DNA from: Zygnema cylindricum
Taxonomy: Eukaryota; Streptophyta; Zygnematophyceae; Zygnematales; Zygnemataceae
Direction of reading: 5' to 3'
NCBI GenBank assembly: GCA_037447655.1
Contig: JBBHKE010000071.1
Location: forward strand, 298,152 to 362,151
Length of the DNA: 64,000 bases
Under the pieces are notes generated by a model that was given only the letters and a program-made list of their open reading frames with translations, was not told the DNA's origin and did no database searches. Every line of letters begins with the position of its first letter. The first letter of the stretch is position 1. Shown here piece by piece: positions 4,031-62,543 of this stretch. The translations under genes and the position numbers were made by a program.

Positions 4031-4052
4031 GTCATTTTTTTGGAGGTATGTC

Positions 4053-5240: not shown

Positions 5241-5451
5241 GTAGTGCATCTGGTGATCTCGAAAACCATCAGGTCCTAAAGTAGGAGGCGACTCGTACAG
5301 ATAAGCAATGAGTTCAAGGTTCGGGTGCACAAAGACGACCAGGTGATGTTGGCGTGTGATGTTGTTAAGGTTAGAGATAGAAAACTGTACGGACTTCAAA
5401 CATAATGCGCCCAACGCAACATTTCATAACATTGTTCAAATTTAGGTGAAC

Positions 5452-5482
<31 letters not shown>

Positions 5483-9789: not shown

Positions 9790-10590
9790 CTGATTGACAT
9801 GTTGAGTGTCAGTTTTTGACAGTTATTGCCAAAAACAACCACTGTATCAGCAAGCATTCGGCAAAAAAATCACCAAGACCGAAACAGCCATGCATCTTCC
9901 GGCTACTGAAACTGGGAAGACAATCATGAACAAGATTAAAAGGAAGAGGAGAAAATGAAAGAATCTCCTTTTAATAGCCAATGAGGAAACAAAACCATCA
10001 GTTGCGACATACCATTTCTATAACATCATTACATCATCGTCTCTCAAAATGATACAAGCTTATAAAAAACACCAAGCAGCAAAAGGAGCAACTAACAACC
10101 ACTGGTGATTTTCAGAATATTAACATTTAACCATTAAACACTTTAACAATCCAAAACATCCATGTTAGTACACATCATGGAAACTCTGCGTTTATGACCT
10201 CTCCATTAAACATTTTGTCAATCCAAAACATCCATTGTAAATCGCAAAAGAGAGACCTTGCGTTTAACAGCTTTGTATTGGTTGTGAGATATGCATCTCA
10301 GCTTATCAGTTACAACAACACGCCTTTGAGGCAGTTCAGGAGGTGGACCAAATCTACGAGAAAACTGAGCATTTGCACTACAGGACAAGAACCTCCGGCT
10401 GAAAAGAACTACCAATATGTAAAAGAACTAATAAGCAGAAGAAAGCAGTAAAATCTAAACTAAACTACCGGCTAAGTATTTACAAACCTACACTGAAACT
10501 AAAACCAGCTACTATGGCCTACAATCATGCGATACATTTGTTGTTTCTCACTAACACTAGACTAAATGTTGCCTGTACTTCGTAACTTTG

Positions 10591-28028: not shown

Positions 28029-28273
28029 ATGGCGTTCGAGCGCTTGGCTCTGCTGCTCCTATTGGCGGCTGCCACGTGGCCGCGTGCATCGTACGGCGCC
28101 ACACACTACTTCGAGTGGAACATCACGTGGGCGAAGGTGGCGCCGAATTGTGTCACGAAGACGGTCGCCACAATCAACGGCGCGTATCCCGGGCCGCCGG
28201 TGGAGGTGACCACCGGAGACAGGGTTGTGGCCAAAGTGTGCAGCAACATCTTCTTCCCCGTGGCGATTCACTG
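28029..28273 (+). CDS. Ascorbate oxidase exon 1
   Basis: Starts at the first ATG after the pyrimidine-rich leader. Encodes a hydrophobic signal (LALLLLLAAATWP), then HYFEWNITWAKVAPNC, typical of the first cupredoxin domain. It ends inside the Trp codon of HWHG before GTAAGT. It is more GC-rich than the later exons. Confidence 0.85.
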
Positions 28274-37200: not shown

Positions 37201-40200
37201 GATTGCGATCAACGGTCGATATGATATTTTAGGTCAAGATCCTCCCGGTCTTGCCGTTCTCAAATATGAAGATTCTCCAGTTTTTAACAAAACTCAGTCT
37301 TACAAAACTTTTTGGCCAACTGGACCAAATGAGACAGACCTTAATTTTGGACCTTCCCAGCAAATGGCCTTCAGAAATCACGAAGATATTCCCGGACTCG
37401 CAGATAAGAAGGTGAGAGTCTAATTTTATTATCCTTGTAACTTATTCGTTCAGGAATACTCAACTTTGTGAGATATTCATTTTACTAATCGGGTATTTGG
37501 ATCATTAAAAAATTGAGTTTACAATTTGTTTACTACTACTGATGCCTTCGTATTAAAAATGCTGACAGCTGGAAAACAAACTTACATTTTCTAATTTAGA
37601 TTCTAAAACCAGCAATTGTATTCACTAGAATGTCAATTTCCGAAAGATAATTTTAGCAACATAATCTGAAAATAAATGAATTAGCCAAAATTAGTTCGGA
37701 AGTGCTGTCTAAAATGTCTTCCCAGGTTCTCAATGTGCGCCAAAAGATATGCAAAACAGATGGATTGATGTCTTAAGTAGCTTCGCCCCATGTTTAAACC
37801 AGAAGACTCTCAAGATGACTAAGACTATTTTACAACTAAGTATTCATTCCCAACTGAACACTTTTTATGCTCAGCTAATCTATCTACATCTTAACCAATT
37901 TTTTTCTTTGTATGCTTACCATTGATTCTATGTCATTTCTATCGCACTTTCGAGAAATGGGACTTCAACCGATGTGTTCAGTTCCTAGTTTAAATGCTTA
38001 CCTGAAATACATTCTGCCGTAGGATATGCTGCTAGCCTACTGGTTTTCTAAAGAAGAAATCAAAGAAAATATCAACTTTTACACCTTTCCCTATCATATA
38101 CTACCTTAGCTATCCACTCATACTTAACGGCCTTTGTACTATATTGCCCTTTTTCAAAATCTTCTTCTTTCTCCAGCAATTTGGTTCATAGCTTGAAAGC
38201 TTTTGGTATTTGTAATCCTCATAGATTCCTTTACTTATCGTTTCTTTTCCGTTGGCCATATTAGAAAATTTCCCCCTCCATTTCCACTCGCTATTTTATC
38301 GTGAACAGCTGCTTTCCTGTTTTTTACTTCAACCATCTGCTCCCTCTCCCTTATTTTTTTCTTCCTCCCTCACTTTCTCACTCTCGCTCTTTTATCACAA
38401 ACATGCAGGTGGACAGATATTTATCCATACGATGGGATAATCAGATGGTTGATGGATACAACCGTTTTTCGATTAACAATAATTCTTATGTGAATTCGAA
38501 AACTCCTCTCCTTGCCGCCGAATACTATGGAATAGAGGGACAATTTGACGAAGATCATCAGCTTTCACCTCAATTTACAATTCTTAACAAAGAAGTCTCG
38601 GGTCTCACAAATGCAACTTATGGAACGAAAGTTTTAACCGCATACAAAGGAGAATTTGTACAACTTGTACTCCAAGTATGTACACTATTTTGGTTTTTAT
38701 GTCTTTGTCTTTTCAGTTCTCTCGAAAGCATTTGCCTATCTTGTAATAGTGGCACTTTCTTTTCCTTCAGCGGGGTGAAAACTGTCTTCACCCATTTAGT
38801 CTACTTTTTACGTTTTAGGATTAGGATCCTTACATGTTTTACAACCGCAAAAAAATGTTTTAGGGTTAAGATCCTTACATGTTTCAAAAACTTGTTTAGG
38901 ATCCTTACATGTTTCAAAAACTTTTTTTAGGGTTAAGATCCTTACATGCTTCAAAAACTTGTTTTAAGGTTGGGATCCCTAAATGTTTTACAACTTCAAA
39001 AACTTGCTGTTTCCTGCTGATTTTAGTTTCTTTTTCTCTCCTCACACTCTTCTTTCTCCCTCTCCCTCTTCTCTTTTAACTGTTTTTCCAGAGCTACCAA
39101 CCTTATGGGAACCATCCTTGGCATTTGCATGGGCATGACTTCTACGTCATTGGATTTGGAAAAGGAGAGTACAACTCTTCTAAGGAGAAAATGTACGAGG
39201 AGAAGATCTATAACCTAAAAGATCCTCCTCTCCGCAACATGGTCACTGTCTACCAAGATACCTGGGTGGCCATTCGCTTTACGGCGAACACGGGACTGTG
39301 GAACTTGCATTGTAAGTATAATACATGGAAGAAGTCAAGGACCCAAAGTCGTAATTAGGGCACTTTCCCATGTAACCGAAACTTAGTCTTGTTACTTTGA
39401 TTTTTAGCGAAGATTTTCCGTACTACTTTCAGAGCGTTTCGGTGGAAGGGTGCTTTCGCATGTAACCACTACTTAGTCTTGTTACTTTGATTTTTAGCGA
39501 AGATTCTCCGTACAACTTTCATAGCATTCGGATGTAAACGCAAATAACCTGTTACTTAAAAAAGTGACTTACGTAGACGTGTACGAAACAATGTGACAGA
39601 TGAAGTGGTACACAAAATGAGGCGAAACTTCCACTCGGCTTCAATTTGAGGCGTCTCTCCGCGCGTTGTACAATTTTTGTGACTTCGTAATGTCCGTTCG
39701 CCACATTGTCGACGTGTCGAAACCCTATGCCGACAGGTGCCCGATGTTTTTCCTACGCTGTATGTGTGAAGACACGTGTGTTTGAGAGAGACGGCCCCTG
39801 TACGGAAATCAGCGCACGTAAAACAGTACGCACAGGTTGGAAACGTGCAGTGTGTTTTTTTTTTGGTACTATGCGCACAAAAATTGTAAAAAACTTCCGA
39901 CACGTGCAACAGCGTCTGCCTATTCGCTCACCTTATTGGACCTTATTTCAAATCACCTCGCGAGGTGATTTGATGTAAAGTTTGAACATGTGCTGAAAGG
40001 ACGCGAAAGTAGGTCGAAATGCGCTAGACGACAAATCGCTCACCTTATTGGACCTTATTTCAAATCACCTCGCGAGGTGATTTGATGTAAAGTTTGAACA
40101 TGTGCTGAAAGGACGCGAAAGTAGGTCGAAATGCGCTAGACGACAAATTGCATCACGCTAAATGACAAACTACTGTACGTTTAGAGTTTCAAGGTAACGC

Positions 40201-44479: not shown

Positions 44480-45030
44480 AGCCACTTCGGTCACACTTTT
44501 TTTATTTCTTCAAATCCTTCAAACCAACAATCATATGAACTCGGGCAGTAAAAAAATATCCATAACGAACAAACGTAACCAAACCAATCCGGCAAACCTT
44601 TCCGCGTCAAAACAGGACAGCCGCGTCACGTGTCTACTTGCGCTTTTGTTCGACCTAATCGCCAACCCTCCACCAAGTCCAGGTTCACAAAACGACAAAC
44701 TTAATGCAAACAGTTCTACCAGTCCAGATACACCTCACGTGGCATAAAAATCTACACCATATTCTGGCCAAAAAAAATCGTCTAGAAGATTCCCTCTACT
44801 AGCTATATACAGATTCCGATACCTCCAAGGACTCAAAAGTACAATCCTTTCCTGCGCCACCGACAAGTACATTCCGTACATACGTACACAATCACAAACC
44901 TCTATGTACTTTCCCGTCTGACTTTTCCACGCTGAACCTTGCGATTTTCGGCCTCCGGAGGCAGTGTGGACGTGTGGGACTATCCACCCCACGCGGCCAC
45001 GTCACCCCCTTTCATTTCGTTTTAGGACGC
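44480..45030 (+). repeat. Second copy of the ascorbate oxidase upstream region
   Basis: Blocks match 27215-27870 in the same order: GCAAACAGTTCTA.CAGTCCAGATA, then ACC.CCAA.G.CT, GC.CCACCGACAA, and CTTTCCCGTC..ACTTTTCC. No ascorbate oxidase exon follows it; the Crypton-like gene starts 300 bases later. Confidence 0.65.
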
Positions 45031-46295
45031 GCCGCGCCGCGCGGACGTTTTCTCACCCAAACTGACGGCCGACGAAACGCAAACATTTCAAGTGCCCGCC
45101 CGTTTAGTTTTCGAAATATTTAACCGTGCAACAGATTAAACGTTTTTTCATTCCATTATTATCGGCTTTTAAGAACCGGTCCTCTACTCTTCCCTGACAA
45201 GCGTCGTACCCCATCTGTCTATCAGCCCATTTCTGCCTTGTTTTGCCCTCTACTGCCTGCTCCGCTTGTTTTCATCGTATAAACCCAAAATAAAAACTTA
45301 TTTTCACCTGCAAAGACAATAACATTTTGTTGTGTTCTATGGAGGACCTTGCAAGTAAGGTCCTTAGAAGTAGGGTCGGAAAAAAAACGCGTTCGAAACC
45401 TACTTGAAAAAGGAACCAATGCAAATAGTGAAAACGTTGGTACTTCACAACCTAAGAGGAGAAAAGGACGAGAAAATGTTGTGCCTGGATATGAGGGAAG
45501 GGGAAGGGGAGATAATGCGGGGCCAAGTAGGGGCCCTCAGGGAGGGGTTAGGGAAGATGAAGACGATGCGGGACCAAGTAGGGGCACTCAAAGGAGTACA
45601 GTGGAACCAACATCTTTTACACTGGACACCGAAGAAACAGGACAAGAGGCAGTTTCTAATAAAAAAGAGACAAGTTTCTAATCAAAAAGAGACAGTTGGG
45701 ACGAAAACCTTCTTACAGTACTCACGACGCATGCGACAATGGAAGGTACTGGGCAAACATGTACTCTTGTTTTTAATGTTTTTGGTGGATATTGAGCAAT
45801 TTTGAACAATTTTTTATGTCACGAATGTTTCATGATTGAATTTTGTTGTCTTGTTTTCATTTTTTTTAATAATAGGGAGTTGTTTTCGGTAATGTGATTT
45901 CATTTACAGAAATGGTGGGCCAAGGCAGAAGCTACGTTACGTAAAAAGAATGAGGATTTTCTTGACTACATCCAAAGAATTGAACGGACAAATTTGAGAG
46001 ATAATGGGCCGAATTTGGACATACCTTGGGAAGACACCATAGTAATTTGAGTTGTATCGGTAGATGCCTTTTATAGGGCCCATAAAGAACAGGCCATGGT
46101 TTTTTTTTTTTTTACAACAACGAAGTAATACATTGTATTGTAAAATATGTTGAGATGAAAAAGAGTTGCATGGGAATCAACGAAAATAGTTGGAGAGAGT
46201 GAGGAAAACAAGACATGGTTATAATTTTGTGTAAGAATAGATTTTAACATTGCGTGATATTCATGTCTATTTTGTATGTTATTTTTTACTTGCAG

Positions 46296-46736
46296 AAAAA
46301 GGGATTTTTACAAGCAATGATGAAAGCACTAATTTTTTTTCAAAAATATCAATGTAGAATTTTAAAGATTCGAGAAGAAGACATCGCAAAAGGATCCGAA
46401 ACAAAAGTAATTATGAAAGGAAAGATTTGACAAACTGGCGTTAAGTGTAAACACGAGTATTTGGATCGACAATCGAGAGCTGTTACTGATGGTTACAACG
46501 CGAAGCAACTTAAAGAGATGAGCAAAAAATGGCTTGATTCATGTTCGACAATGAGTTTTTTTCACGAGAACATGCTTGCTCGTAGTGTGACACTTTTGAC
46601 TCATTTTGCAGCAAGAATGAGAAACAGCGCAAGGGTTGTGAACCTTTGCGATTTGTTTTCAATGGAAGTGGAGAGTGTAGGACACACACCGTGTCATATG
46701 CTCGGATTTTTAGACATGAACGGCAAAACTAACAAG
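46296..46736 (+). pseudogene. Crypton-like recombinase, exon with DGY, LF and GKTN motifs
   Basis: 147 codons in one frame with a single TGA (46428). Contains the DRxxxxxxDGY entry motif, LLTHFAARMRN and DLFSMEVE, ending GKTNK at the donor GTGATC. Confidence 0.7.
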
Positions 46737-47105
46737 GTGATCTACCTTTTATTATTTAAAACTATTAAGTTTCTTACACAACGTTATCTTTTACGGCTTA
46801 TATCCACTAATTGAGCTTTGTTATTTATATTGCAGAATGGTCTGAAAGAGCATTTCGGTGTTATCCGAAATAGGGAATGGGACGTTTGTCATGTCGGCGG
46901 GATCTCTATGTGGTTGTTGTACCTATTCCACATAAAAGGAGGCACGGGGTCGGGGTGTCTCGACTTTTCGTCGAGAGAGTCATAGTAACCCTAGAGAAAT
47001 TTCCTCTAAAGTCAATTGTTTTGTCAACTTGAATGCGTACTTGTAATTAGGATTTCACAGATAATAACTTTTTCTATATGATTTACATTTGTGATACACC
47101 AACAG

Positions 47106-47595
47106 GTACAATATTTTTCTATTCCCAAAGGCTTCCGACAACGAAAATCCTTTGGACTACCACTCCCACCTTAAGTTAATACAGGCGATGTTTTTGAGTT
47201 TGGACATAATCTCCAACTCAAACACACACGCAATGCGAGGGTCAGGCGCAAGGGCAGCCGAGAGCAAGGGGTGAGTACTTCCATTTTCTTTTTACTTGCA
47301 TTAAATTAAAGAATTTGAAGGTAATAATTGTCGACGATTTGTTGTTTATAACTTTGTATTCACTTAACAAAACTTTATTGTTTATAGGGCTTCTGAAGCG
47401 CATATTGCCCGACATGGGAGATGGGTGTTCCTCTCCTATCTCACCTCTATCCCCTTCAAGGTCTTGTTAGTACAAGCCGGATTCGAGGATGGCAAAGACA
47501 ATTACCTTCTTCACCGAGATCGCGTTGAAGTCCCCGAATGCCTTTTTTGACGTACATTTCCATGGGCGAACGACGCTCTCGAGGTTATTAAAACG
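47106..47595 (+). pseudogene. Crypton-like recombinase, exons with HxxR and the Tyr block
   Basis: Two exons joined in phase 2 (47270/47388) restore G-ASEAHIARHGRW. HxxR, the GARAAE helix, a Tyr in SYLT, AGFEDGKDNYLLHRDRVEVP and FPWANDALEVI follow. A TGA interrupts before RTFPW. Confidence 0.72.
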
Positions 47596-47678
47596 GTATG
47601 TAATCTATTTTAACAAAATAAATAGGGACAAAACATAGGAAGAAAAAAAAATTATAAAAGAGAATAGCAACGGTGCCG

Positions 47679-47815
47679 AGGTGGCGGCGGTGGTGAGGTG
47701 GCGCTGGTGACGAGGTGGCGTTGGTGACGAGGTGGCGGCGGTGACGAGGTGGCGGCGGTGACGAGGTGGCGGCGGTGACGAGGTGGCGGCGGCGCCGATG
47801 TGGCGCCGAGGCGGC
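47679..47815. repeat. GC-rich minisatellite, 15-bp unit
   Basis: About eight tandem units of GGTGACGAGGTGGCG with small variations. Sits just after the recombinase exons. Confidence 0.85.
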
Positions 47816-48312
47816 TCCACATCGTGAATGTGGGGGATTTGGTAAGAGGCGCAGAATTTTCAAATTTGAATTTGAACATATGCGCGCCAAACGGCTTAGA
47901 TCGCCTTACGGATTTAATTAGCACTGTACGCCAAAATGTACAAATGCGAGCGTCTAATTTGAATCGCGATGCATCGTTAAACAAAGTGAATTTTCATAAC
48001 GATTTGGAGCAAGACGCAAAGTGAAACGATGTAAAATTCCGTACGCGATTTTAAATGAAATTCACTACGTGACGTTCGTACTTGCGTTTCATTTGAATCG
48101 TGATATAGCTTTTACTTACATAGCGCGCCCTTCGACGTCCTATCGCAACGCGACTTAGAATTAAATTATCGTACGACTTGTTCATACTCTACTTGAAATT
48201 CGTACGTCGGTTACATTTCGTAACCCTACGTACGTCATAAAGGTACGTTGAACATTCTTCCACTCTCCTCTCTTCACGTGTCTCTTTCACTTCGAAATCT
48301 TACACAGCCGCC

Positions 48313-48990
48313 ATGGATTTTTCATTGAATCGATCTGCAAATCAGCGCACCACTAAACCGCGCCCAGAAAAACAGCCCGTTCTCGCAATTCTAGAGGAAG
48401 AAGGGGAGACAAGTGGACCACGGTTTGTAGAGACACAACCGTAAAGGAGGAGAATACCTTCTTCCAAACCCTTAGAGTTTGAATATGATTAAGTGTCATT
48501 AGATGGGGACAACAACAAGGACGATGCCGAATACGAGCCATCCGACCACTCGGTGGAAGAACCCATTGTCAATGGGGATGAACCATCGGAGGAGTGTGGT
48601 GTTTCCGAGCACACCTCACAGGGGGACATAAAGGTTCACATATTCCAAGGGGAAGCCTCTATGGAAGACGATCAATCACCCGAAATTACAATGCCGAATA
48701 CGAGCCATCCGACCACTCGATAGAAGAACCCATTGTCGATGGGGACGAACTATCGGAGGAGTGTGGTGTTTCCAAGCACACCTCACAGGGGGACATAAAG
48801 GTTCACAAATTCCAAGGGGAAGCCTCTATGGAAGACGATCAATCACCCGAAATTATAGAGGGGCAGGAAGAAGATGTGTATACTAGTGGGGATGAAGTGT
48901 TGGGGGTGGCATCTTCAGGACCCCATCAACATTTATCATTAGCACTAGGGAACCAAGTAGGGGTCATCCTAGGCCAGAGAAGCCAGATTG
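48313..48990 (+). pseudogene. Acidic ORF with its own ATG, copy A
   Basis: ATG in a good context (GCCGCCATGG) opens MDFSLNRSANQRTTKPRPEK, then an acidic stretch (LEEEGETSGPRFVE) and RRRIPSSKPLEFEYD. Stops are at 48442 (TAA) and 48490 (TAA). A 167-bp tandem duplication (48525-48858) repeats the EECGVSEHTSQGDIKVHIFQ part out of frame. Copy B lacks these stops but has ATA in place of ATG. Function unknown; it may be a separate gene captured in the locus or an upstream exon. Confidence 0.5.
48525..48858. repeat. 167-bp tandem duplication in copy A
   Basis: TGCCGAATACGAGCCATCC starts both units (48525, 48692). 167 is not a multiple of three. Confidence 0.85.
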
Positions 48991-49024
48991 ACTTTTTCTA
49001 GCACCAATAGGGCAACATGAAGCA

Positions 49025-49670
49025 ATGGATGCCTTTTTCCTTTACCCCGACCATTTCATAGACCCCAAGGATTGGCCTCCAGGATGGAAGTACAAGAATA
49101 TCGAAGGGGCTAGTGGCTTAAGTAGCAGTCAATCCCAGGCGGAACCCATTACCAATTCGCCTGACTTGCCTGCACATCCAACTTGGATGTTCATGTCTTC
49201 TGATGACAATAAACCATCATTCGCGACATTTACACAATTCGATATAGTAGACACCAATCTCATTTGGATTATTTGCCGAAAGGGTGTATATAAGCTCGAT
49301 GTGCATGAATATCTGCGGGTACACCATATCTGGGATCCGCAGCTCTCCAGCATTCTCCGCAAGTGTGAGGCGACGCCGTAGGTCTAAGCTCTCATTAAGG
49401 CTAGGGAGAAGTTTTTAAAGTGTATTCGAGGTCGTATGAAAGAGGAGCGACAAATTTGCCTAAGAGACATTCTTAGGATTCCTCGTCCTAATCCAATGCC
49501 CCAACAGAGGAGAGGTAGGGGTTCTCCACGGAAATCAGATCCTCGACCAAAGGAAGGAGGTAGGAGGTATATCTCTCAAAGATTTATTGCGAAAGATCGT
49601 CAAAATTCAGCGAGAGGTTAAGCATCTTCATCAGGAGGTCGTCCATCTTCGACAATTGGTTATCCGAAAT
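49025..49670 (+). pseudogene. Unrecognised ORF plus coiled coil, copy A only
   Basis: MDAFFLYPDHFIDPKDWPPG, then HPTWMFMSSDDNKPSFATFT, a hydrophobic/aromatic stretch, stops near 49379, and a basic part (PMPQQRRGRGSPRK). A heptad-like segment VKIQREVKHLHQEVVHLRQL follows. I do not recognise the family. Its absence from copy B reflects the 1.3-kb deletion there. Confidence 0.4.
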
Positions 49671-49679
49671 GACGGAGAA

Positions 49680-50990
49680 GAGGCAGATGGAGAGAGGCAC
49701 AGAGGGAGGGATAAAAAGGGAGAGAGAAAGAAAAAAATGGAGGGAGAGATAGAGGGAGAGAGAGAGGATGAGAGAGGGGGTGAGAGAGGTGGAGGAAAAA
49801 AGTGGGAGAGGGAGGGAAATGAGGTGGGAGAGGGAGGTGGGGAAGAAGAGGCAAAGGGAGAGAGCGATAGAGAAAAACGGTGGGAGGTAGGGGAAGAGGG
49901 GGAGAGGGGGAGAGAGAGGGGGAGAGGGAGGGAGAGAGGGAAGAAGATGAAAGGGGCGACGAAAATGAAGGAGGGTGAAAGGAAGAGAAAGAAAAAGAAA
50001 ATGAGGAAGTGGAAATGGAAAAGAGAGAAGGAGAGGGAGAGAGAATGAAAACACAACCGATAGGTGAAAGGAAAATAAAAGGTGAAAGGAGGAGAGTGAA
50101 AGAGATAGAGATGGAGAAGACGGGAGGGGGGGAGAGGGAGAGAGAAAAAAGGGGAGAGGTCGGGGAAGAGGGGGAGGGAGAGCGAGAGATAGAGGGAGAG
50201 AGGGAAATAGGTGAAAGGGGGAAAGGAGGGAGAAAGGAAGAGAGGGAGGGAGAGAATGAGGGAGTGGAAGTGGAAAAAAGAGGAGGAGAGGGAGAGAGAA
50301 TGAAAGCAAAACCGAGAGATGGGGGGGATGAGATGGAGATAGATAGAGAGGGAGTTGGAGGAAATGGGAGAGAGGGTTCAAGAGAGTACACGAGGGGGAA
50401 ATGGGGTAAAGGGAAGAGGGGGAAGAGGAGGGAGAGAGAGGCCGAAGGGGGGAAGGGAGAAGAGAGTGAGGAAAAAGATGAAAGGGGGAGAGTGGATGAG
50501 ATAGAGATGGAGAAGGATGGAGAGGGGGAGAGGGAGGGAGAGAGAGAGAGAGTAAGAGGGAAAGATGGAGGGGTGGAGAGAGATGGAGAGTCTCATGGAG
50601 AGAGGAGTGAGGGTAGAGGAGGAGAAAGGGGAAGAAGAAGGGGTGGAAGAGTAAAAGGAGGGACTAAAAAAGGGAGAGGGAGAGGAAGAAAGAGTTAGCG
50701 AGTCGAAGAGAGAGAGGTGGAGAAAGAGGGTTCTGGGAAGGGGAAGAAAATTAGGGGGAGAGAGGGATACAGAGTGGCATAGGTGGGGAAAATTTGGGTG
50801 GGACAAAGGGGCAATAGGGGGTGAAAAAAGGATGAAGGGAGGGCCAAAAAAATGAATGGAGGGAGGGAGATAGAGCTGCAGATCGAGGGGAATGACAGAG
50901 GGGAGAAATAGAAAAGGGATGGCTAAAAAAATAGAGGGAGTGAGGGAGATAGCGTGTTAGATCAGGAGGAAGCAGGGAGGTGGGAAATAG
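49680..50990. repeat. Purine-rich (GAGAGG)n tract, copy A
   Basis: About 1.3 kb of almost pure A/G on the plus strand. Long open frames here on either strand are composition artefacts. Confidence 0.85.
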
Positions 50991-51044
50991 GGAAGGGAAG
51001 GGAGTTTGGAAGAGCCGGAAAAAAAACAACTGGTGGCATATGAA

Positions 51045-51190
51045 TTTGCGCCGTCGCCGGCTTGTCGATGTAGCCGGCTCGTCGCCACCTCATCGCCGGC
51101 TCGTGGCCGGTTCGTCACTATAACCGGCTCGTCACCGGCTCGTCGCCGGCTGGTCACTGTCGGCGGCTCTTCGCTGTCGGCAGCTCTTCG
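51045..51190. repeat. GCCGGCTCGTC short tandem repeats, copy A
   Basis: Recurring CGTCGCCGGCTCGTC-like words. Counterpart at 59107-59265 in copy B. Confidence 0.8.
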
Positions 51191-51739
51191 CTGGCTTTTG
51201 ACAAAAGCCGGGTCACCCCAGTCGCCTGAACACCGACCGTTTGTGGGCGGAGAGACATTGAGGCAGGGAGTGAGGGTTCAACATAGGAGTAAAAATGATG
51301 GATATAGGGATAGAGAGACAAGGAACGATTTGTCTTCTTCACCCAAAATCTAAGATATAGCGAGATGGAGTATCTAAATTCTTAGAATTCATACAACTTT
51401 AGAAATCTAGTGAAATTCAACGCGTATATTATAACTTAGTCAATATTCGGGAAAGTGGGAAAAATAGGGGAGGGCACCTTGTTAGTTTGTAGAGGTTAGA
51501 GAATTATAGTTATGGTAGAGTATGTCCAATCACTTTATTGTTACTACCACCGTTACCACCTTTGTGGTTGTGATGTAATAAAAATATAATTTTGATGCAA
51601 TACGTTGGGTGCCGTGAAGATTGAAATGCTTGAAATGTGTGGATGACCTTCAAAATGGAGAGAGTGCAAATATTGATTCTCTGAAATATGCAAAAAATTA
51701 TGTTCACGAATCAGAAGGTTTTCTTTTTTATTTTCTTAA

Positions 51740-52272
51740 CTTATATTATCATGTTTTGTGATGCATAGGAATTTACATGGAAGTGACAAAACTCGAGATA
51801 TTTTGGCCCAAAAATTTCTCGAGTTACTAACTAGCACCATTCGACAAACCATATGGCAAGATCTTGCACTTATGCGAAGGGATTTCCCGGACCATGCATA
51901 CTTTACCACTTCATTTTTTTGGACTATACTAAAAGAATGCGGTCCGGAGTGGCAAACTTTCACGGAAGCGGTACATCGAACGGACGCGAAAAAAGACGAA
52001 AGGTCCCTTATTGTCGACATTCTAATTCCAACGGAAGTGAAAGATGAACTCCGCGCGTTGAGACTGAGAGTTGACTCTATTCCACCCCTCATAGAAAGAA
52101 TACATGAACTCGAAAATATTATAAAAAACATTGGAAAAAAGTTTGAAACGTGTATTGCGAAGATTGACACAAGGCTCACGACAACACAACGCCAATTTGA
52201 CGTAAGATTCTCGAAAATCAAGTCAATACTTCTAGGCTTGCCACGACGTTTTATGCAACCATTTTCCTTTTC
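51740..52272 (+). pseudogene. Crypton-like linker/coiled-coil domain, copy A
   Basis: FLELLTSTIRQTIWQDLALM, FPDHAYFTT and EWQTFTEAVHRTD follow the FL.LL..LR..LLQD..L...P.HP.F block that lies after the recombinase domain in fungal Ndc10-like proteins. A helical region (IERIHELENIIKNIGKKFET) then follows. It is open from the ATG at 51758 to a TAG at the copia junction. Confidence 0.55.
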
Positions 52273-52593
52273 TTTGTAGTTCTGTGACTGCTACACCAAC
52301 TGAAGATGAAGATGATGATGGAGTAGATATCACAGAATTGAGATAAGCAAGAAGCTCTCACAGATGCTCAAAAAAAATACACAAAAGTTTGGAACACAAC
52401 AAAGATAATTTAGGCAACCAAATGGCCTACTAATCTGACAAAATGCAGATAATACACAAAGGAACACAAGTGCAAATTTACACAAAAATCTGCAAATAGA
52501 TAATACACAAAGAAACACAAGTGCAAATTTACACAAAAATCTGCAAATAGATCTGAGAGATATTCTCAGTCAAAGATATCAAAAATGTCACAG
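52273..52593 (-). repeat. Left copy of the copia-2 end/leader segment
   Basis: Matches 57404-57658, from GTTCTGTGACTGCTACACC to AAAAATGTCACAG, with an extra 51-bp tandem duplication (AATACACAAAGGAACACAAG unit). Confidence 0.85.
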
Positions 52594-53223
52594 CATAATG
52601 TTGATACAACAAGTTCCTAATTCTGAGATGGCTAAGTCCTATTCTTATACCTAAAAGATCAATTCTTTTGAGAGCTAGCAGCCACTTATTGCCCTAACTA
52701 AGCAAATGAAGCATACCAGCCATGCATCAATAATATCTACTTATCGAATACCTGAATAGGTCAAGGTATGTCATACAGAAAGAATCTGAACTGAGACACT
52801 AATCAAACAAAACACGCTTCTGTACAAACTAGAGATAAGTAACATCACAGTACACCGTGTACAAACACGTCAGATAATTACAGACGTGGTCCCGGATGAT
52901 CACCTTCCGTTGGCAGCAAATCTTCAGCGTCCATCATTTCGAAGTTTCATCCAAGATGAAACTTTTATGTGACACTTCAGTCTTTATGGTAAGTCTGAAT
53001 AGTACTAACAGATCTTTGTAGAGTGTCTCATTTACCGACGCGTGCCCTGAAGTGTGTCACACCGTGAACTCCCTCACTGTTCATTGTAACATTTATTCTG
53101 GTACATACTGAACCAGACTTTTCACAAAATATTCTAAATACTGAGCAAACACTCCCCTCGCCTATGAAGCTTAGTGAGGACTAAAGCTTTCAAGACAACA
53201 CTCCCCTTAAGCTTTAGACTCTA

Positions 53224-54724
53224 CTAACCACTTAGACCACATCCCTCTCTACAGAATTTCATTTTCGGGGTAGGTAAGGGTTTTGTCATCATATCTGCCA
53301 ACATTTTCTCATCACGTAAGTAGATGAGTTTCAGAATTTTGCCCATCACCTTTTCCCTCACAAAGTGTAGCTTAATGTCAATATGTTTGATTTTGAAATG
53401 ATGACTAGGATTAGAGGCAATAGCAATCGCAGCTTGATTGTCACACCAAATGATCTGAGGACCCGACTGCATAAATTTCAGTGCTTGTAAAATATACTTT
53501 ACCCAAAGAAGTTCCTTAACAGCTGAGCTAGCTACCATGTATTCAGCGTCCATGGTTGACTGAGGAGTCACCTTTTGGAGCTTGCTTGTCCAGCAGCAAG
53601 TACCATTACCGATCTTCAGAATAAATCTAGTGGTAGAACATCGGCTTCGCATATCACCAATACTCGCATCGCTCCAGGTGATGATCTTTACTTCATCTCC
53701 TCCAAGAGAAATTTGGAGATCTCGTGTTCCTGCAAGGTATCTCAGAACTCGTTTTGCTGCCTCCCAATCTGATTTCTTCGGATTCTGAAGATTTCGACTC
53801 AGAGCTCCAACAACCGCTGCAATATCCGGACGAGTGCAGTTGATAAAGTAGAAAAGACTCCCAACAATTTGTCGGTAGGGAATCGTAGACATGAAGTCTG
53901 ACTCCGTTGGTTCCATATCATCTTCGAGAGTCATTCCTCCATCTGTCTCCTTTCCTTCCATCTTTTGCCTGAACTCCATAGGAGTGGCACTCTCTTTTGC
54001 ATCTGCCATGCCAAATCTTTCAAGTACATTTCCAATGGCCTCTCTCTGAGTGAGGTAAATAACTCCATGACTACTATCTCTCTCTACTTGAATGCCTAGG
54101 ATATACTTAGCTTCACCTAAGTCTTTCATTTCAAACCTGGCATTTAGAGCTGCTTTTATCTTATTTATCTCATTCAATGATTTGTTGATTAGCAGCAGAT
54201 CATCTACATACACTGCTACATAAATCACACCATCATCTCATTCCATGACATAAACAGAGTAATTTGAGCTGATTCTTTTAAAGCCCAAGCTGGTAAGAAA
54301 CTCATCCAACTTCAAATTCCACTGTCGTGGAGCCTGTTTCAATCCATACAATGATTTCAATAGTTTACAGACTAGATTTTCCTTTCCTTTTTCTACAAAA
54401 ACTTTAGGTTGTTTCATATAGATTACTTCCTCTAAGTCTCCATACAAGAAGGCAGTTTTAACATCTATTTGATGCAATTCCATATTCTCAATTCCAATTA
54501 GGGACAAGAAGACTCTGACATTAGGAAACCTGACAACAGGAGAGAATCTCATAGTTTATTCCTTTATTTTGACTAAAACCCTTTGCAACCAGACGAGCTT
54601 TATACCTTTCAATGGTGTTGTCTGGGTTGAGCTTCACTTTGAAGACCCAGTTGCAGCCAATGGCTTTCCGATCCGGTGGAAGCTCCACAAGTTCCCACGT
54701 TTGGGCTTCCATGATCGATCTCAT
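53224..54724 (-). pseudogene. Copia element 2 reverse transcriptase and RNase H
   Basis: CNWVFKVK, MELHQIDVKTAFLYGDLEE, YVDDLLLI, LGEAKYILGIQVE, then the RNase H signals (WSDASIGD, STMDAEYM, WCDNQAA). The RNase H stop at 53224 is followed by the purine tract AGCTTAAGGGGAG. A stop or frame change separates the RT parts near 54235 and 54530. Confidence 0.85.
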
Positions 54725-54820
54725 CTCATCATTTGCAGCTAAGATCCAATGATCCTTTTCAACAACAAAAAATGCCTCGTGAATGGTAAGAGGCTCCTCG
54801 GTGCTTGCAGAAAACGCATA

Positions 54821-56061
54821 TTAAACTTGTTCTCCCCTTAAGCGAGAACTCTGTCTTCTTTCCCCCGTAAAATCTGAGGCTGGAACTGTTGGATACCGAG
54901 CTCCACCTTGAGGTCTTGGAAGTTGAGGATCAGCTGTTGTTTGTTGTTCAGCAGCTGATGGTACTCCAATATTTTGCACTCTAGTGGAAGAAGAACTAGA
55001 AGCTGTAGCAGACTGAAAGGGAATCTGATCCAAGATGAAATATTCTTGTAGTTTTTCTTTCTTCTCATTTTCATCCATACTAAATACGTCTATGGACTCC
55101 CTCTCATCTTTTACTTGAATATTTCTAGCAATTTGGATGGTATGTTTCTGAGGACAATAAATTCTATATCCTACAAATTCATCATCATATCCCATAAAGA
55201 ATCCAGGCTTAGACTTTGGACTAGGTTTCCAGTTTGGTAGATTATCTAGTACAAAGCACTTGCTACCAAAAACTCTGAAGTGACTGACATCTGGTTTTCT
55301 GCCAGTCCACACTTCATAAGGTCTCATTCCCTGAACAAATCTAGTTTCTAATCTGTTCCTAATATATGCTGCAGTTTCGTAAACTTCAGCCCAAATTTTA
55401 ATATCTATTCCTTTATCAGCCAACATAGATTTGACACTCTCAGTTAGTGTTCTGTTTAGCCTTTCTGAGACTCCATTCTGCTCAGGAGTGTAAAGCACAG
55501 TGAACCTATTCCTTTATCAGCCAACATAGATTTGACACTCTCAGTTAGTGTTCTGTTTAGCCTTTCTGAGACTCCATTCTGCTCAGGAGTGTAAAGCACA
55601 GTGAACAGGTGAGATATACCATTTTCTTTTAAATAAGCAGCAAACTCATTGGAAGTATATTCACCTCCATTATCAGATCTTCATGAGAGAATCAATCTAC
55701 CATGAAGTTTCTCTGCCCAGATCCGAAAGTGTTTCAAGTGGGTGAAGACCTCCTTTTTCTCCTTCATAAAATAGATTCTGCTGAATCTGGAGAAGTCGTC
55801 TGTGAATGTGACAGAGTATTTGTTGTCAGCAAAAGATGGTACTTTGGAGGGTCCCCACACATGTGAATGAACAAGTTCTAAGATATTAGTCGCTCTAAAA
55901 TCTGCAGCTTCGGGTAAGGGAAGTTTATGAAGCTTGCCTAAAGCACAACCATCACAAATACTTGACTGTTGCTGGCCAAGCTTAACCCCTTCTACCATAT
56001 CATTTTTGACCATCTTTTCCAATCTGTCATAATGAACATGACCCAACCTCTTATGCCACAA
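54821..56061 (-). pseudogene. Copia element 2 integrase with tandem duplication
   Basis: HKRLGHVHYDRLEKM and CDGCALGKLHKLP give the zinc motif (about 56060-55920). VHSHVWGP, NGVSERLNRTLTE and AAYIRNRLETRF come from the core. A 101-bp duplication at 55405-55606 breaks the frame in the core. Confidence 0.8.
55405..55606. repeat. 101-bp tandem duplication in copia-2 integrase
   Basis: CTATTCCTTTATCAGCC begins both units (55405 and 55506). The copies are nearly identical. Confidence 0.9.
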
Positions 56062-56176
56062 AACATTATCGGATAAGACATTGGAAAAGCAAAAAAAGAT
56101 GTATTCACCAGGTTCATCCGGTACAAATTATTTGGGCCTCTAGTTCCCATTACAGCTACCCTTCCCTCTTTGCTGA

Positions 56177-57450
56177 CTATTTTCTTTCCTTGTTTGTGAA
56201 GTATTTCAAAACCTCTACTTTTGCAACTGAGGTAGAAAACAAGTTCTTTTTGAATTGAGGAACATACAATATATCATAGAGAGTTCTAGGAACTGCCTGT
56301 CCATCTATCTCACACATAAGGATGACAGTTCTTTGAGCCTTTGCTTCAACTGTGGCACCACAAGCATAATAGATCTGCCTTGTTGGAATAGGATGCAGAT
56401 CTGTGAACGAAGCTTTGTTCCAGCACATATGAGATAAACTTCCTGAGTCCATGATCCACCCGTGGTCTTTGTCTCCCTCCATTAGTTTTGCAAGGGCAAA
56501 GAATTCTTTGTCATCTGTTTTTGGAAAACTGACGACATCTAGCGCCTTCCCTTTGTCAACTGATTCCAATCGCGATATATCAGCTGAAAATGCTTCGGTT
56601 TTAGAGGGAAGAGTCGGTGGTGTGTGTGGTGTCTTTTGGGGCGTGTAGATTCCTCTTGGCCTCCATCCATTTCTGAACATACCTGTCTCACAGTCTTTAA
56701 GAAACTTATGACACTATTTGTACAGATGTCCTTGATTATAACAGTAGACTCATTTGTTATAAGGCTGAAAACCTTGGTACCCCTGAGATATGTTTTCTTG
56801 ATACTGTGCATTAAAAGCTACAGATGATTTTCCTGGATTAAAAGCTGCAACAGTGGATTCCTCCTCTAACACTAGTTCTATAGTTGTTGCTAAGTTCCAA
56901 GCTGACTTATCCAACTTTCTCAAATTTGCCGAGGCTCCTTTATATTCCTCAAGAAGACCTCGCATAAAAATCATAGCCTGATGATAAGGGGAGAAGTTCC
57001 CCCCTGAACATGCATTTTTTGCCAACAAAAGCCTAAGACCATTACAATATTCAGCCATGCTACCTCATGTATACCTATAATCATAAATATTCCTAGCTGT
57101 GATAATTTCATGTTTGTCATTAGCTTTCAAATAGATGGTTTTCAAGGAAGACCAGATTTCTGATGCCTTTTTCATTTTGATATGTGACATAAGTAGATTT
57201 TCTAAGATCATTAACTTCAACAAATGCAGATAGGCTGATTTTTCCCATTATAGGATGCTTCAATTTCAGCAAGGCTGCCATCAACTACATCAAACAATTT
57301 AACTTGAGTGAAATAAGACTCAACCATATCAGACCAATAGATGTATTTCCTTCCATCAAAAACTGGGATATGTGAGGGTGGGCCCGTGACCTGTTGTTCT
57401 GTGACTGCTACACCAACTGAAGATGAAGATGATGCTAGAGTAGACATCAC
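56177..57450 (-). pseudogene. Copia element 2 gag and protease
   Basis: Gag start MSTLASSSSSVGVAV, then PVFDGRKYIYWSDMVESYFT. A further gag part at 56750-57058 (YCNGLRLLLAKNACSG). Protease DSGSLSHMCW near 56440. Stops and shifts separate them. Confidence 0.75.
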
Positions 57451-57658
57451 AGAATTCAGATAAGCAAAAAGCTCTCACAGATGCTCAGAAAAATACACAC
57501 AAGTTTGGAACACATCCAAAGATAATTTAGGCAACCAAATGGCCTACTAATCTGACACAATGCAGATAATACACAAAGGAACACAAGTGCAAAGTAACAC
57601 AAATATCTGCAAATATATCTGAGAGATATTCTCAGTCAAAGATATCAAAAATGTCACA
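57404..57658 (-). repeat. Right copy of the copia-2 end/leader segment
   Basis: Includes the gag start region. Ends at AAATGTCACAG, exactly where copy B sequence begins. Confidence 0.85.
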
Positions 57659-57771
57659 GCGTACGTTGGTTACATTTCGTAACCCTACGTACGTCATAAA
57701 GGTACGTTGAACACTCTTCCACTGTCCTCTCTTCACGTGTCTCTTTCACTTTGAAATCTTACACAACCACC

Positions 57772-58380
57772 ATAGATTTTTCGTCGAATCAATCCGCAAA
57801 TCAGCGCACCACTAAACCGCGCCCTGAAAAACAACCCATTCTAGCAATTCTTGAGGAAGAAGGGGAGACAAGTGGACCGCGGTTTGTAGAGGCACAACCG
57901 AAAAGGAGGAGAATACCTTCTTCCAAACCCTTAGAGTTTGAATATGATTTAGTGCCATCAGAGGAGTGTGGTGTTTCTGAGCACACCTCAGAGGGGGACA
58001 TAAAGGTTCACAAATTCGAGGGGGAAGCCTCTACGGAAGACGATCAATCACTCGAAAGGGGGAAGCCTCTACGAAAGACGATCAATCACCCGAAAGTACG
58101 GAGGGGCAGGAAGAAGATGTGTATACTAGTGGGGATGAAGTGTTGGGGGTGGCATCTTCAAGATCCCATCAACATTTATCATTAGCACTAAGAAACCAAG
58201 AAGGGGTCCTGCCTGTACATCCTAGGCCAAAAGAGATATATCCTAAGATACATCCTAGCCCAAAAAATATACATCCTAGGCTAGAAGGGCCACATTGGCA
58301 CTTTCCTGCACCAATTGGGCAACATGAAGCAATGGGGCAACATGAAGCAATGGATGCCTTTTTGGGTTCAACAACGTACA
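57772..58380 (+). pseudogene. Acidic ORF, copy B, start codon lost
   Basis: Same protein as copy A without its stops: RTTKPRPEKQP, PKRRRIPSSKPLEFEYDLVP, EECGVSEHTSEGDIKV. A 38-bp tandem duplication (58019-58096) then shifts the frame. Further on: HPRPKEIYPKIHPSPKNIHP, a short histidine/proline-rich repeat. Confidence 0.5.
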
Positions 58381-58930
58381 CGAGGGGGAAATGGGGTAAA
58401 AGGAAGAGGAGGAAGAGGAGGGAGAGAGAGGCCAAAGGGGGGAAGGGAGAAGAGAGGGAGGAAAAAAATGAAAGGCGGGGAGTGGATGAGATAGAGATGG
58501 AGAAGGATGGAGAGTGGAAGAGAGAGGGAGAGAGAGAGAGAGAGAGAAAGAGGGAAAGATGGAGGGATGGAGAGAGATGGAGAGAATCATGGAGAGAGGA
58601 GTGAGGGTAGAGGAGGAGAAGGGGGAAGAGGAAGGGGTGGAAGAGTAAAAGGAGAGACTAAAAGGGGGAGAGGGAGAGGAAGAAAGAGTTACCGAGTCGG
58701 AGAGAGAGAGGTCGAGAAAGAGGGTTGTGGGAAGTGGAAGAAAATTTGGGGGAGAGAGGGATACAGAGTGGTATAGGTGGGGAAAATACGGGTGGGAAGT
58801 GGAAGAAAATTTGGGGGAGAGAGGGATACAGAGTGGTATAGGTGGGGAAAATACGGGTGGGACAGAGGGGCAATGGGGGGTGAAAGGAGGATGAAAAGAG
58901 GGAAACAAAATGAATGGAGAGAGGGAGATA
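58380..58930. repeat. Purine-rich (GAGAGG)n tract, copy B
   Basis: Shorter counterpart of the tract in copy A. It holds a 65-bp tandem duplication (about 58730-58862, GGAAGTGGAAGAAAATTTGG unit). Confidence 0.85.
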
Positions 58931-59106
58931 GAGTCGCAGATCGAGGGGAATGAGACAGGGGGGAAATAGAAAAGGGATGGCTAAAAAAATAGTGGGAGGG
59001 AGGGAGATAGCGCGGTAGATCGGGAGGAAGCAGCGAGATGGGAAATAGGGAAGGGAATGGAGTTTGGAAGAGCCGGGAAAAAAACAGCTGGTGGCGTATG
59101 AATTTG

Positions 59107-59265
59107 CGCCGTCGCCGGCTCGTCGCCACCTCATTGCCGGCTCGTCGCCGGTTCGTGGCCGGTTCGTCGTCGGCTCGTCGCCGGTTTGTCGCCGGCTCGT
59201 CGCCGGTTTGTCACTATAGCTGGCTCGTCACCAGCTCGCTACCGGCTCGTCACTGTCGCGGCTCT
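59107..59265. repeat. GCCGGCTCGTC short tandem repeats, copy B
   Basis: More units than copy A, for example CGTCGCCGGTTTGTC variants. Confidence 0.8.
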
Positions 59266-59486
59266 TCGTTGGCTTCTGACAACGTCGGGTCACCCCAGTC
59301 GCCTGCACACCGGCGGTTTGTGGGCCGAGAGACATTGAGGCGGGGAGTGAGGGTTCAACATAGGAGTAAAAATGATGGATATAGGGAAGGAGGGACAAGG
59401 AACGATTTGTCTTTTTCACCCATAATTTAAGATATAGCGAGATGGAGTATCTAAATTCTTAGAATTCATACAACTTTAGAAATCTA

Positions 59487-60300
59487 GTGAAATTCAACCC
59501 GTATAAATTTCTCGACTTACTAACTAGCACTATTCGTCGAACCATATGGCAAGATCTTGCACTTATGCAAAAGGATTTCCCGGACCATGCATACTTTACC
59601 ACTTCATTCCTTTTGACTATACTAGAAGAATGCGGTCCGGAGTGGCAAACTTTCACGGAAGCTGTACATCGAATGGACACCAAAAAGACGAAAGGTCCCC
59701 TATTGCCGACATTCCAATTCCAGCGGAAGTGAAAGATGAACTGCGCGCGTTGAGACTGAGAGATGACTCTATTCCACCCCTCATAGGAAGAATACATGAA
59801 CTCAAAAATATTATGAAAAACATTGGAAAAAAGTTAGAAACGTGTACTGCGAAGATTCACACAAGGCTCACGACAACACAACGCCAACTTGACGGAGGAT
59901 TCTCGAAAATCCAGTCAATACTTCTAGGCTTGCCACAACGTTTTATGCAACCATTTTCATTTTCTTCACAACCATCGTTTCCCCCTCCTCCTTGTCCTAC
60001 TCATCACCCTGCTCCTCCCTCTTCATCTACAAATCCACCACCTTTTTCATTTCCCACTTTTGCACCCATGTCTCTACCCAACCAACACCTTCCTTTTCTC
60101 AACGTCATACATTTACTAATGTCCTCTTCGACCCTATTCATTCCACGACCTCTCCTTCCCACCATTCTACATCTACCCATGCCTCTGTCCCCCCTATTTA
60201 TTCCACAGCATCTCTTTCCCACCATTATACGTCTATCCATGCCACTCTTCCCACTATTCATTCCACACAAATTCTTACTCCAGCTTATGTCACACTTAGC
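59487..60300 (+). pseudogene. Crypton-like linker/coiled-coil and Pro/Ser/Thr linker, copy B
   Basis: LLTSTIRRTIWQDLALM, FPDHAYFTT and EWQTFTEAVHRMD match copy A. After a shift near 59690 comes the helical region, then a low-complexity linker (HSTTSPSHHSTSTHASVPP). Only copy B preserves this linker because copy A is cut off by the copia segment. Confidence 0.55.
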
Positions 60301-60317
60301 GCATTTTTTATAGTTGG

Positions 60318-60725
60318 GAAGGATACACCCTACAACGCCACGAGTTTGATGTCAAGGTGGAATCTATATTCAACGTGTACCATTATGGATTAAATGGCCA
60401 CCCGCCTATAAAGCTGTTATTCGATATAACTGAAACAGAAAAATACAAATCAAAATAAGGGTGCAAATTCGTGGTATGGGCAAAGGGAGAGGGGAAGAAG
60501 TGGAGTCGTTGTCTCGGAATTTTGCAATGTGTTGAAAAGCTAATGACTGTTCCAGGGTGGGATTTAACAAAAAGTATAAACTTTGTAGAAAGACTTAAAA
60601 TAGAGAAGTGTAGTGGGAGCACAGCAGAGCTTAAAGAGGCCTTATACATAACAACTGAACTAATTTCGAAAGACGGATTGAATAAGAAAGAATTTCAACG
60701 AAGGTTGAGTCGTTTCAAAAATTAG
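60318..60725 (+). pseudogene. GCR1_C-like DNA-binding segment of the Crypton-like gene
   Basis: One frame from 60318 to the TAA at 60723 reads GYTLQRHEFDVKVESIFNVY, YGLNGHPPIKLLFD, a TAA at 60456-60458, then KKWSRCLGILQCVEKLM and LKEALYITTELISKDG. The arrangement Y..R....V...W/F...Y..GLNG.P.I..L, followed by a W/R-rich block, is that of the GCR1_C domain at the C-terminus of Crypton recombinases. The match is short and the canonical first Trp is Phe here. Confidence 0.5.
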
Positions 60726-61190
60726 AAGAGTTACGTGCAATCATTGGTTAATTTAGGAGTTAGTAGGAATAGTATAGGAGTTTCGATGTGGTGAGTAGAG
60801 ATATACTTTTTATTTGTAATTGTTGAACCTGGATTTCGTATACAATTGGGGTGAAAAGCTTACTTTAACCTTTTGTGTTTAACTAAATTTTACTAAAATT
60901 ATTATACCGTTTTGTTTGTGCTGTTCTTTTTTGTTGAATTTACGTTTTGTTGTTTTTTTTCGTTAAAATTATACCGTACTTTTTATTTGCCTTTTTGTTA
61001 ACTTATTTGTCTCCGTTGGTTTTCTTATTTTTTTATTTTTTTTGTATAAAGTTTTTAAATGGTTAAAAAAAACGATGCTTGTAAATAGTCCGGATTTTCA
61101 AATATTTATAGAAAGTTTGATGTAACATGGTGGTATGGATAAAATTAAGTTAGATTTCCATCGGTCTCCTTTGCCATTCTATCCTCTCTC
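60726..61190. other. T-rich spacer after the Crypton-like locus
   Basis: No coding exon seen. A 3' flank or untranslated region is likely. Confidence 0.4.
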
Positions 61191-61191
61191 T

Positions 61192-61500
61192 ATTTTTTCC
61201 TCTCTCTCTCTCTCTCTCTTTCTCTTTCTTCTTTCTTTTACCTTATTTAGTTCCTCTTCTTTCATTCGTTGGACTTCAATTCCTTTCTTGCTTTTACTTG
61301 TTATTCTCTTTTCTTTCTCTCTCTCCCCTCTCTTTCTCTTTCTCTCTCTCCTTTCTCTCCTTTTCTCCCCTTTTCTCTCTCCCTCTCCCTCTCCCTCTCC
61401 CTCTCCCTCTCCATCTCTATCTCCCTCTCCCACTCTCCCTCTCCCTCTCCACCTTCCCATCCCCCTTCCTCTCCCCCTCTCCCTCTCCCTCTCCCTCTGA
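61192..61500. repeat. Pyrimidine-rich (CCCTCT)n tract
   Basis: CT and CCCTCT units, the same composition as intron 1 of the ascorbate oxidase gene. ORFs here are compositional. Confidence 0.9.
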
Positions 61501-61763
61501 AACTCGAGAAGGCAAATCTCAAGAAGCTTATCTAGTTAGTGTCGACTCCAAGTTGATATAAACCCAAATGATTGACCCCTTGACAATCAGAACCCCCATA
61601 CAACTTCACCCCTGTGAAATAAGACTTTCTGTGTGCTCATTTCCACCACAGATTGCAAAGTTAGAATATGAGTTTTGGACACATTCACCCACTTTGACTT
61701 TCCCTTATAAAAGCAGCCACCCTGGCAAGATAAAACTTTGACCAACTACACCCCTGTCTAGAC

Positions 61764-61935
61764 TGGACTCCCTTGAGTCTGCTGCAAAAAGAATCACTGA
61801 AAATGGTCCACTGAGTGAGTTGTAATTAAATGGCAAAGTTTGCCTATCATTGGACTCCCTTGAGTCTGCTGCAAAAAGAATCACTGAAAATGGTCCACTG
61901 AGTGAGTTGTAATTAAATGGCAAAGTTTGCCTATT
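61764..61935. repeat. 86-bp tandem duplication
   Basis: TGGACTCCCTTGAGTCTGCT begins both units, each ending GGCAAAGTTTGCCTAT. Confidence 0.9.
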
Positions 61936-62543
61936 TATACAGATGCTCTCTAGGAGAGAGGCGACTACCTCGCAAAATTATTCTAAGTCCTAAAACCCCT
62001 CTCTAAGCTCCCTAGTACTGAGGTACGGTCTTTTCGTAAGACTGTACCGTACAAGAAAGTACAGGCACCATCATTCTTTCTGTACGGTTAATGTACGACA
62101 TCGCCATAATGTGACATTTATCACATCCAGAATTATCATCTTGCGTTTCAGAAATCCCGCAATCCTCCTGGATCCTGCCACGTGTCATTCGGAGTGGCGG
62201 TGCCCGAAAACGCCAAGTCGCCCACTCCGGAATCCCGGCTCGCACCACGGCCGTTTGATTAAGACCAACATTTGAAATTGGCCGTCTAAATAATTGCGCG
62301 GTATTTGTTTCACATTTGAAACAAATGCGCGATATCTGTTTCGAGGTAACCCGTAGTCCGTACAATACAAACTGTTTCTATGTCTTATTATGTCGTTTAA
62401 TGAATTAGTCAAACTATTTCTGTCTATATATTTATTGTACCCTATATATTCTAGCATAGGTCCTAGACTATAGGATAAAGCTATCGGATACGTGATTTTG
62501 ACGGACGGCAGGGACCAGGATCAAATCCTGGCTTCTTAAGACA

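Follow-up and report, generated by a model that had tools for sequence, protein, structure and literature searches.

Introduction

The closest described relatives of the element reported here are the CryptonF transposons of fungi and oomycetes, which, in the parts of the survey by Kojima and Jurka (2011, PMC3212892) consulted here, encode a tyrosine recombinase with a C-terminal GCR1_C domain and end in short direct repeats, 6 bp long in most fungal members. We analysed a stretch of 64,000 nucleotides (the window; G000:C55:298152-362151 of a 352.8-Mb genome in 2689 contigs) and consider it highly likely, on the sequence features set out below, that positions 44935-61997 hold a decayed CryptonF-type DNA transposon belonging to a multi-copy family in a land plant's nuclear genome. 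The element and its relatives resemble CryptonF in the recombinase, the GCR1_C domain and the short terminal direct repeats, and also in that no terminal inverted repeats were seen here by eye; they differ from it in a host that is very probably a land plant, in repeats of 4-5 bp (TACC(G) or AACC) and in an additional open reading frame (ORF2) nested in an intron of the window family.

Two further systems invite comparison. MarCry-1_FO of Fusarium, described in the consulted parts of PMC3212892 as a Crypton fused to a Mariner-type element, likewise has sequence in common with a DNA transposon of DDE type; among the Crypton copies that we read, in contrast, no DDE transposase was noticed, and the common part is ORF2, an accessory intron frame of no Pfam family. 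Ndc10/Cbf2 of the yeast CBF3 complex shares the NDC10_II profile with the window gene; Cbf2 is described in the same parts of PMC3212892 as Crypton-derived with a catalytic site that is not preserved, whereas two relatives of the window gene, loci L009 and L030, retain the R, HxxR and Y positions.

Cryptons as a whole, mobile genes that move by means of a tyrosine recombinase, have known hosts among fungi, oomycetes and animals. For plants, the part consulted of a May 2026 transposon review (PMC13317346) states that Cryptons are 'not described in plants', the corresponding part of a 2020 review (PMC7385966) that none had been described in Arabidopsis, and the tree legend of PMC3212892 reads 'Plants: CR = Chlamydomonas reinhardtii'. 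Against novelty stands a 2015 table in PMC4438587, which counts Crypton among the superfamilies present in every group studied, with land plants as one of those groups, and in the part seen names no element. Our literature search for Cryptons in land plants, moss, streptophytes and angiosperms returned no report of a plant Crypton in titles or abstract openings, Repbase and subscription journals lying outside its scope. On the reading given here, a land plant would harbour at least two diverse Crypton families, and selection would be maintaining the genes of one. CryptonF would gain a host in a further kingdom, the question of vertical descent versus transfer from fungi or oomycetes would be reopened, and Crypton movement could be followed in a plant. 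Plant repeat annotation may, moreover, be overlooking a class.

A tyrosine recombinase gene in the window

A first-pass annotation made from the letters alone had proposed an exon-intron gene of Crypton type at 45340..60725. All of the motifs that it named (DGY, DLF, GKTN, CxVG, THAMRGSGARAAE, GRW, SYLT, FPW, FLELL... and GLNG) were found in order on the + strand, and the exons 46431-46735, 46836-46984, 47106-47270 and 47388-47595 have GT-AG borders and splice to a single frame. The 276-aa product of these four exons, with X at the stops, matched the Pfam profile NDC10_II at E 3.3e-17 (63 bits), and the exon at 51.8 kb on its own scored 0.034; spliced together they gave E 4.8e-26 (92 bits, profile positions 46-311 of 317), above the Pfam cut-off of 26.3 bits, with no better family. 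Unspliced, none of five exon pieces matched NDC10_II, so the result rests on the splice model, which the relatives bear out. A GCR1_C-like C-terminal DNA-binding domain (60354..60593, + strand, VESIFNVYHYGLNGHPPIKLL..., with a stop) matched PF12550 over profile positions 9-78 of 80, with a score of 15.8 bits (E 0.017) that stays short of the 23-bit cut-off. The profile search suggested by the annotation has in this way confirmed the recombinase, but in the window itself leaves the second domain under threshold. A short N-terminal piece of the protein had no Pfam match, and a sequence search of solved structures with the window core returned none.

The exons, all on the + strand, also reveal the extent of decay. 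Exon 1 (45339..45745, ATG at 45339, donor GT at 45746) has an internal frame shift, its pieces in two frames being 44-80% identical in amino acids to the open exon 1 of L030. Exon 2 (45910..46092, KWWAK...) is 87% identical to L030 residues 127-188 and has lost the splice donor after 46092 that is kept in L030. Exon 3 (46296..46735) contains DGY..., the arginine-motif region, DLF and GKTN, with a TGA at 46428-46430, and is followed at an intron position common to a second family, A (GKTN/NG, phase 0), by exon 4 (46836..46984, NGLKEH...CHVGG...RES), at whose junction with exon 5 a TAG is created (46984/47106). Exon 5 (47106..47270, FLFPKASDNENPLDYHS...THAMRGSGARAAESKG) and exon 6 (47388..47595, ASEAHIARHGRW..SYLTSIP...FPWAND, with a TGA at 47548-47550) were placed by splice model and profile search. 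Beyond a long intron lies a first copy of exon 7 (51770..52274, FLELLTSTIRQTIWQDLALMRRDFPDH..., then a coiled-coil-like linker), its acceptor not fixed, which lengthens the NDC10_II match to profile position 311. A TAA interrupts the GCR1_C-like region at 60456-60458, and ORF2 is broken. The three stops from which the annotation had deduced a recent inactivation are therefore present, but they are not the only lesions, and 'recently' is unsupported, the repeats of an internal Copia insertion being only 93% alike.

Relatives and limits of the window element

With an E threshold of 0.001, an NDC10_II profile search of the genome gave at least 60 matches at the exon level, on 44 contigs (125 of 132 candidates scored), and a DNA search with window exons 3-6 and their introns gave at least 42 matches on 34 contigs, its own included (40 of 70 candidates scored); contigs were counted by hand, and the genome match counts are lower bounds. 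Excluding the window itself, the DNA matches are 67-93% identical to it, some of them being short pieces, and Crypton copies are spread over dozens of contigs, the longest 798 kb. None of 14 control genomes matched NDC10_II, but as those named are bacteria and archaea this control is weak; no relative was confirmed in viral contigs or prokaryote genome contigs. Locus L030, on contig C249, is 86.4% identical to the window core and open for 513 aa from its ATG over exons 1-6, so the window family does have members in which this part of the gene is open; downstream of ORF2 it no longer resembles the window, and the C-terminal exons were not seen there. Contigs C249 and C315 have identical ORF2 copies, so some matches may be haplotypes or assembly duplicates, with a recent duplicate as the alternative.

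Comparison with a second copy, L029 (C1323), places the element at 44935-61997 with an AACC repeat at either end. L029 is shortened; its similarity to the window starts at 44935 and resumes at 61512-61997, neither flank is alike, and the shared ends read 5' AACCTTGCG... and 3' ...CCTAAAACC. The 5' AACC (44935..44938, + strand) is the start of AACCTTGCGATTTTCGG, where similarity to L029 begins, and L037, a third copy, begins in the same way behind a different flank; among eight 5' stretches compared, the exact window-family end recurs only in L037, and L040 has an altered form. The 3' terminal region (61512..61997, + strand) ends in ...TAAGTCCTAAAACC, with its AACC at 61994-61997, and is 86% identical to L029 3249-3582 and then 84% identical up to 3645, beyond which the flanks differ. 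The window Crypton is multi-copy and not a lone survivor, and the second family has copies with open frames.

A second family with open copies

Among 20 ten-kb loci, 19 belong to this second family (A) and one, L014, to a third lineage. Protein identity of the family-A locus L009 is 30% with L030 and 26% with the window; family-A copies, among the matches listed, are 76-97% identical to one another, and they have ends in common and unrelated flanks. Spliced, L009 yields an open product of 761 aa, its start codon not fixed, which matches NDC10_II at 3.1e-41 and GCR1_C at 1.1e-9, both above cut-off (GCR1_C also at 4.5e-10 when the ORF was scanned separately). Three intron positions are common to family A and the window gene, the third judged from the donor alone. 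R, HxxR and Y are the catalytic residues of tyrosine recombinases, and their positions are kept in L009 as in L030.

The ends of family A were sought in the 20 loci with error-tolerant patterns, three chance matches being discarded by eye. Thirteen loci have a recognisable 3' end, which is TACC in every case and continues with G (10 loci) or A (3 loci). A 5' end could be identified in nine, of which 7 have ACCG and 6 TACCG, and six loci show both ends. By-eye inspection of the family revealed no terminal inverted repeats. Near the 3' end, L009:7000-8300 and the homologous parts of other family-A copies contain tandem repeats of about 325 bp, as judged from offset matches.

The ratio of nonsynonymous to synonymous substitution (dN/dS) against L009 was computed for 13 of the 18 other family-A loci, over 414-747 codons. 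A low set comprises L013 (0.21), L012 (0.22), L021 (0.24), L025 (0.25) and L027 (0.27), a middle set L017 (0.34), L019 and L024 (0.35 each), L022 (0.37), L011 (0.42) and L010 (0.43), and a high set L018 (0.81) and L020 (0.83). Aligned codons contain no stop in L013, L018, L020 and L024, and 1-9 stops in the remaining loci. L013 has both ends, no stop in 734 aligned codons and GT-AG at four introns. Judged from these alignments, the ratios and stops together are those expected of a gene on which selection acts through transposition, many of its copies being dead.

The third-lineage locus L014 (G000:C623:60000-69999) has five matched blocks, all free of stops, and other residues stand there in place of the Tyr and of the His of HxxR; its sequence makes it a candidate domesticated gene of Crypton-like origin.

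The host genome

The contig that bears the element also has multicopper oxidase pieces (Pfam Cu-oxidase_3 and Cu-oxidase) at 27897-38930 of the window (27.9-38.9 kb), 6-17 kb upstream of the Crypton. Joined, these laccase pieces score 153.7 bits against TIGR03389, a laccase model that we take to be a plant one, 128.1 against TIGR03388 and 53.6 against the fungal ascorbate-oxidase model TIGR03390, none at cut-off. Against solved structures, whose plant or fungal origin is given here as we understand it, a single piece scores 46.1 bits with a plant ascorbate oxidase and 44.8 or less with fungal laccases, which does not separate them. A second Copia element lies between the laccase pieces, at about 31.8-35.7 kb on the minus strand (RVT_2 5.3e-70).

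Elsewhere in the genome, the light-harvesting family PF00504 has at least 88 matches. Lhcb3 and CP24 are land-plant markers. Locus L032 is Lhcb3-like, its best single-domain chain being 5xnl_3 (421.8 bits; presumably Lhcb3 of pea), followed by 7oui_2 and 8z9d_33; L033 is CP24-like, with four chains at 306-313 bits, two of them named CP24, and the next at 182; and the best chains for L031 are 8htu_U and 7xqp_a (460 bits; next 434), which we take to be from the moss Physcomitrium. The ORF2 family is present both in Crypton copies and on the PF00504-bearing contigs C610 and C1462. A search of the genome for rbcL gave no match. From the laccase pieces, the Lhcb3- and CP24-like genes and the repeat family that joins Crypton and light-harvesting contigs, we place the host, with high probability, among the land plants; that it might be a bryophyte is a guess. 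On G000:C610, C1077 and C889, short PF00504 matches lie in clusters and possibly represent an expanded ELIP-like family of the kind found in desiccation-tolerant plants.

Class assignment, mechanism and alternative readings

By their sequence features, NDC10_II, a C-terminal GCR1_C domain, short terminal direct repeats and dispersed copies, the window-family and family-A elements are assigned to the CryptonF type. Their coding capacity, purifying selection, multi-copy dispersal and end structure are read directly from the copies. The better-kept relatives encode a tyrosine recombinase (the NDC10_II region) over at least five spliced exons, to which family A adds the C-terminal GCR1_C domain that may bind the element. 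The recombinase would then act on the short direct repeats at either end, TACC(G) for family A and AACC for the window family, recombining them through a strand chemistry that we infer to excise a circle, which could integrate by recombination with a similar tetramer elsewhere. A circle and its re-integration have been proposed for Cryptons in work cited in the consulted parts of PMC3212892.

Several observations weigh against this assignment. The window GCR1_C match is below the Pfam cut-off, although it spans nearly the whole profile and lies at the expected C-terminal place, and among the exons read from open window-family copies none is a GCR1_C exon. Evidence for AACC ends in the window family comes from three copies at the 5' side and two at the 3' side, the family-A search patterns already contained the end letters, and dN/dS in the 12 family-A copies compared other than L013 reaches 0.83. 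The window RG(x)nSR motif has Met in place of its arginine, which, together with the several lesions, means that the window copy itself cannot act.

The annotation had raised the possibility of a contaminant contig, and a fungal or oomycete sequence assembled together with the plant would fit the known hosts of CryptonF (PMC3212892, in part) and the near-equal scores of the single laccase piece. We consider this very improbable: the joined laccase pieces on the same contig favour TIGR03389 over the fungal TIGR03390 by 153.7 to 53.6 bits, if below cut-off, the copies extend over dozens of contigs of up to 798 kb, and ORF2, which on 17 of 34 Crypton contigs (hand count) follows the recombinase exons in the same orientation, recurs on the light-harvesting contigs C610 and C1462. 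The laccase pieces and the ORF2 family together make contamination unlikely.

A host gene domesticated from a Crypton, also put forward by the annotation, would have precedents in fungi and animals according to the parts of PMC3212892 consulted, and the stop-free blocks of L014 with their replaced His and Tyr look as if a protein had been kept there for DNA binding only. For the window sequence this explanation was rejected and is extremely improbable, since it is one of many dispersed copies with 67-93% identity and their own ends, as is also the case in family A. An element of another tyrosine-recombinase class (DIRS, Ngaro or virus-like) has just as slight a chance of being correct. It would belong to the same recombinase superfamily, and a retrotransposon does sit inside the window element, but that Copia has its own long terminal repeats (LTRs) and is on the minus strand; L009, inspected by eye over 2170-9999 (short of its 3' end) and with four of its ORFs scanned against Pfam, showed no reverse-transcriptase-like ORF to the eye, and the pairing of a tyrosine recombinase with GCR1_C is that of CryptonF in the consulted parts of PMC3212892. 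The profile matches, the multi-copy family and the short direct-repeat ends instead favour the CryptonF-type transposon in a plant genome, as the annotation had proposed, and the same-genome search that it suggested has supplied relatives, some with an open gene.

The accessory frame ORF2

In L030, ORF2 is an open frame of 462 aa (3657-5042) on the same strand as the recombinase, past exon 6 and ahead of where exon 7 would be, and matches no Pfam family; its broken remains in the long intron of the window gene (48244..49688, + strand) are piecewise 62-77% identical to it in amino acids. A genome search gave at least 123 ORF2 matches (119 of 1386 candidates scored), and most of those outside the Crypton copies mentioned above have 35-43% identity. 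Among the 20 ten-kb loci, ORF2 appears only as a weak piece in L028 (28% over 112 aa, 4e-7). Two non-Crypton loci were inspected, L045 (ORF2 at 2288-4312) and L046, both with ORF2 relatives and without recombinase exons within the 8 kb examined. L045 has a DDE_1 transposase piece downstream of ORF2 (4e-11) and a weak Tc5-type helix-turn-helix match (0.028, below cut-off), and L046 is similar to it by eye. ORF2 is a high-copy family common to Crypton family B and a DDE_1 transposon locus. A tentative reading, about which we are somewhat more doubtful than convinced, is that ORF2 may be more than a nested insertion, namely an accessory module exchanged between two unrelated transposase classes, those of tyrosine-recombinase and DDE transposons, sitting in both on the coding strand beside or inside the transposase gene and perhaps acting as a DNA- or chromatin-binding helper.

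Internal structure of the window element

The span first proposed, 45340..60725, does contain the gene, but the element extends to 44935-61997, and its part between 48 and 60 kb is partly a tandem duplication with a Copia insertion. Rfam and tRNA scans of the window gave no match, nor did an Rfam scan of 14 of the 20 ten-kb Crypton loci. The inserted Copia-type LTR retrotransposon (52275..57660, minus strand; RVT_2 3.7e-30, gag_pre-integrs 1e-14) has terminal repeats at about 52275-52594 and 57392-57660, the LTR pieces being 93% and 92% alike. It is followed by a shortened tandem second copy of 48201-52274 (57660..59966, + strand), recognised from the direct repeats D5-D7, D9, D10 and D14 at 91-94% identity; this copy contains a further exon 7 at about 59505-59966. 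Within 48201-59966 the borders of the duplicated stretch coincide with the Copia ends, a layout that unequal recombination between two Copia insertions would leave.

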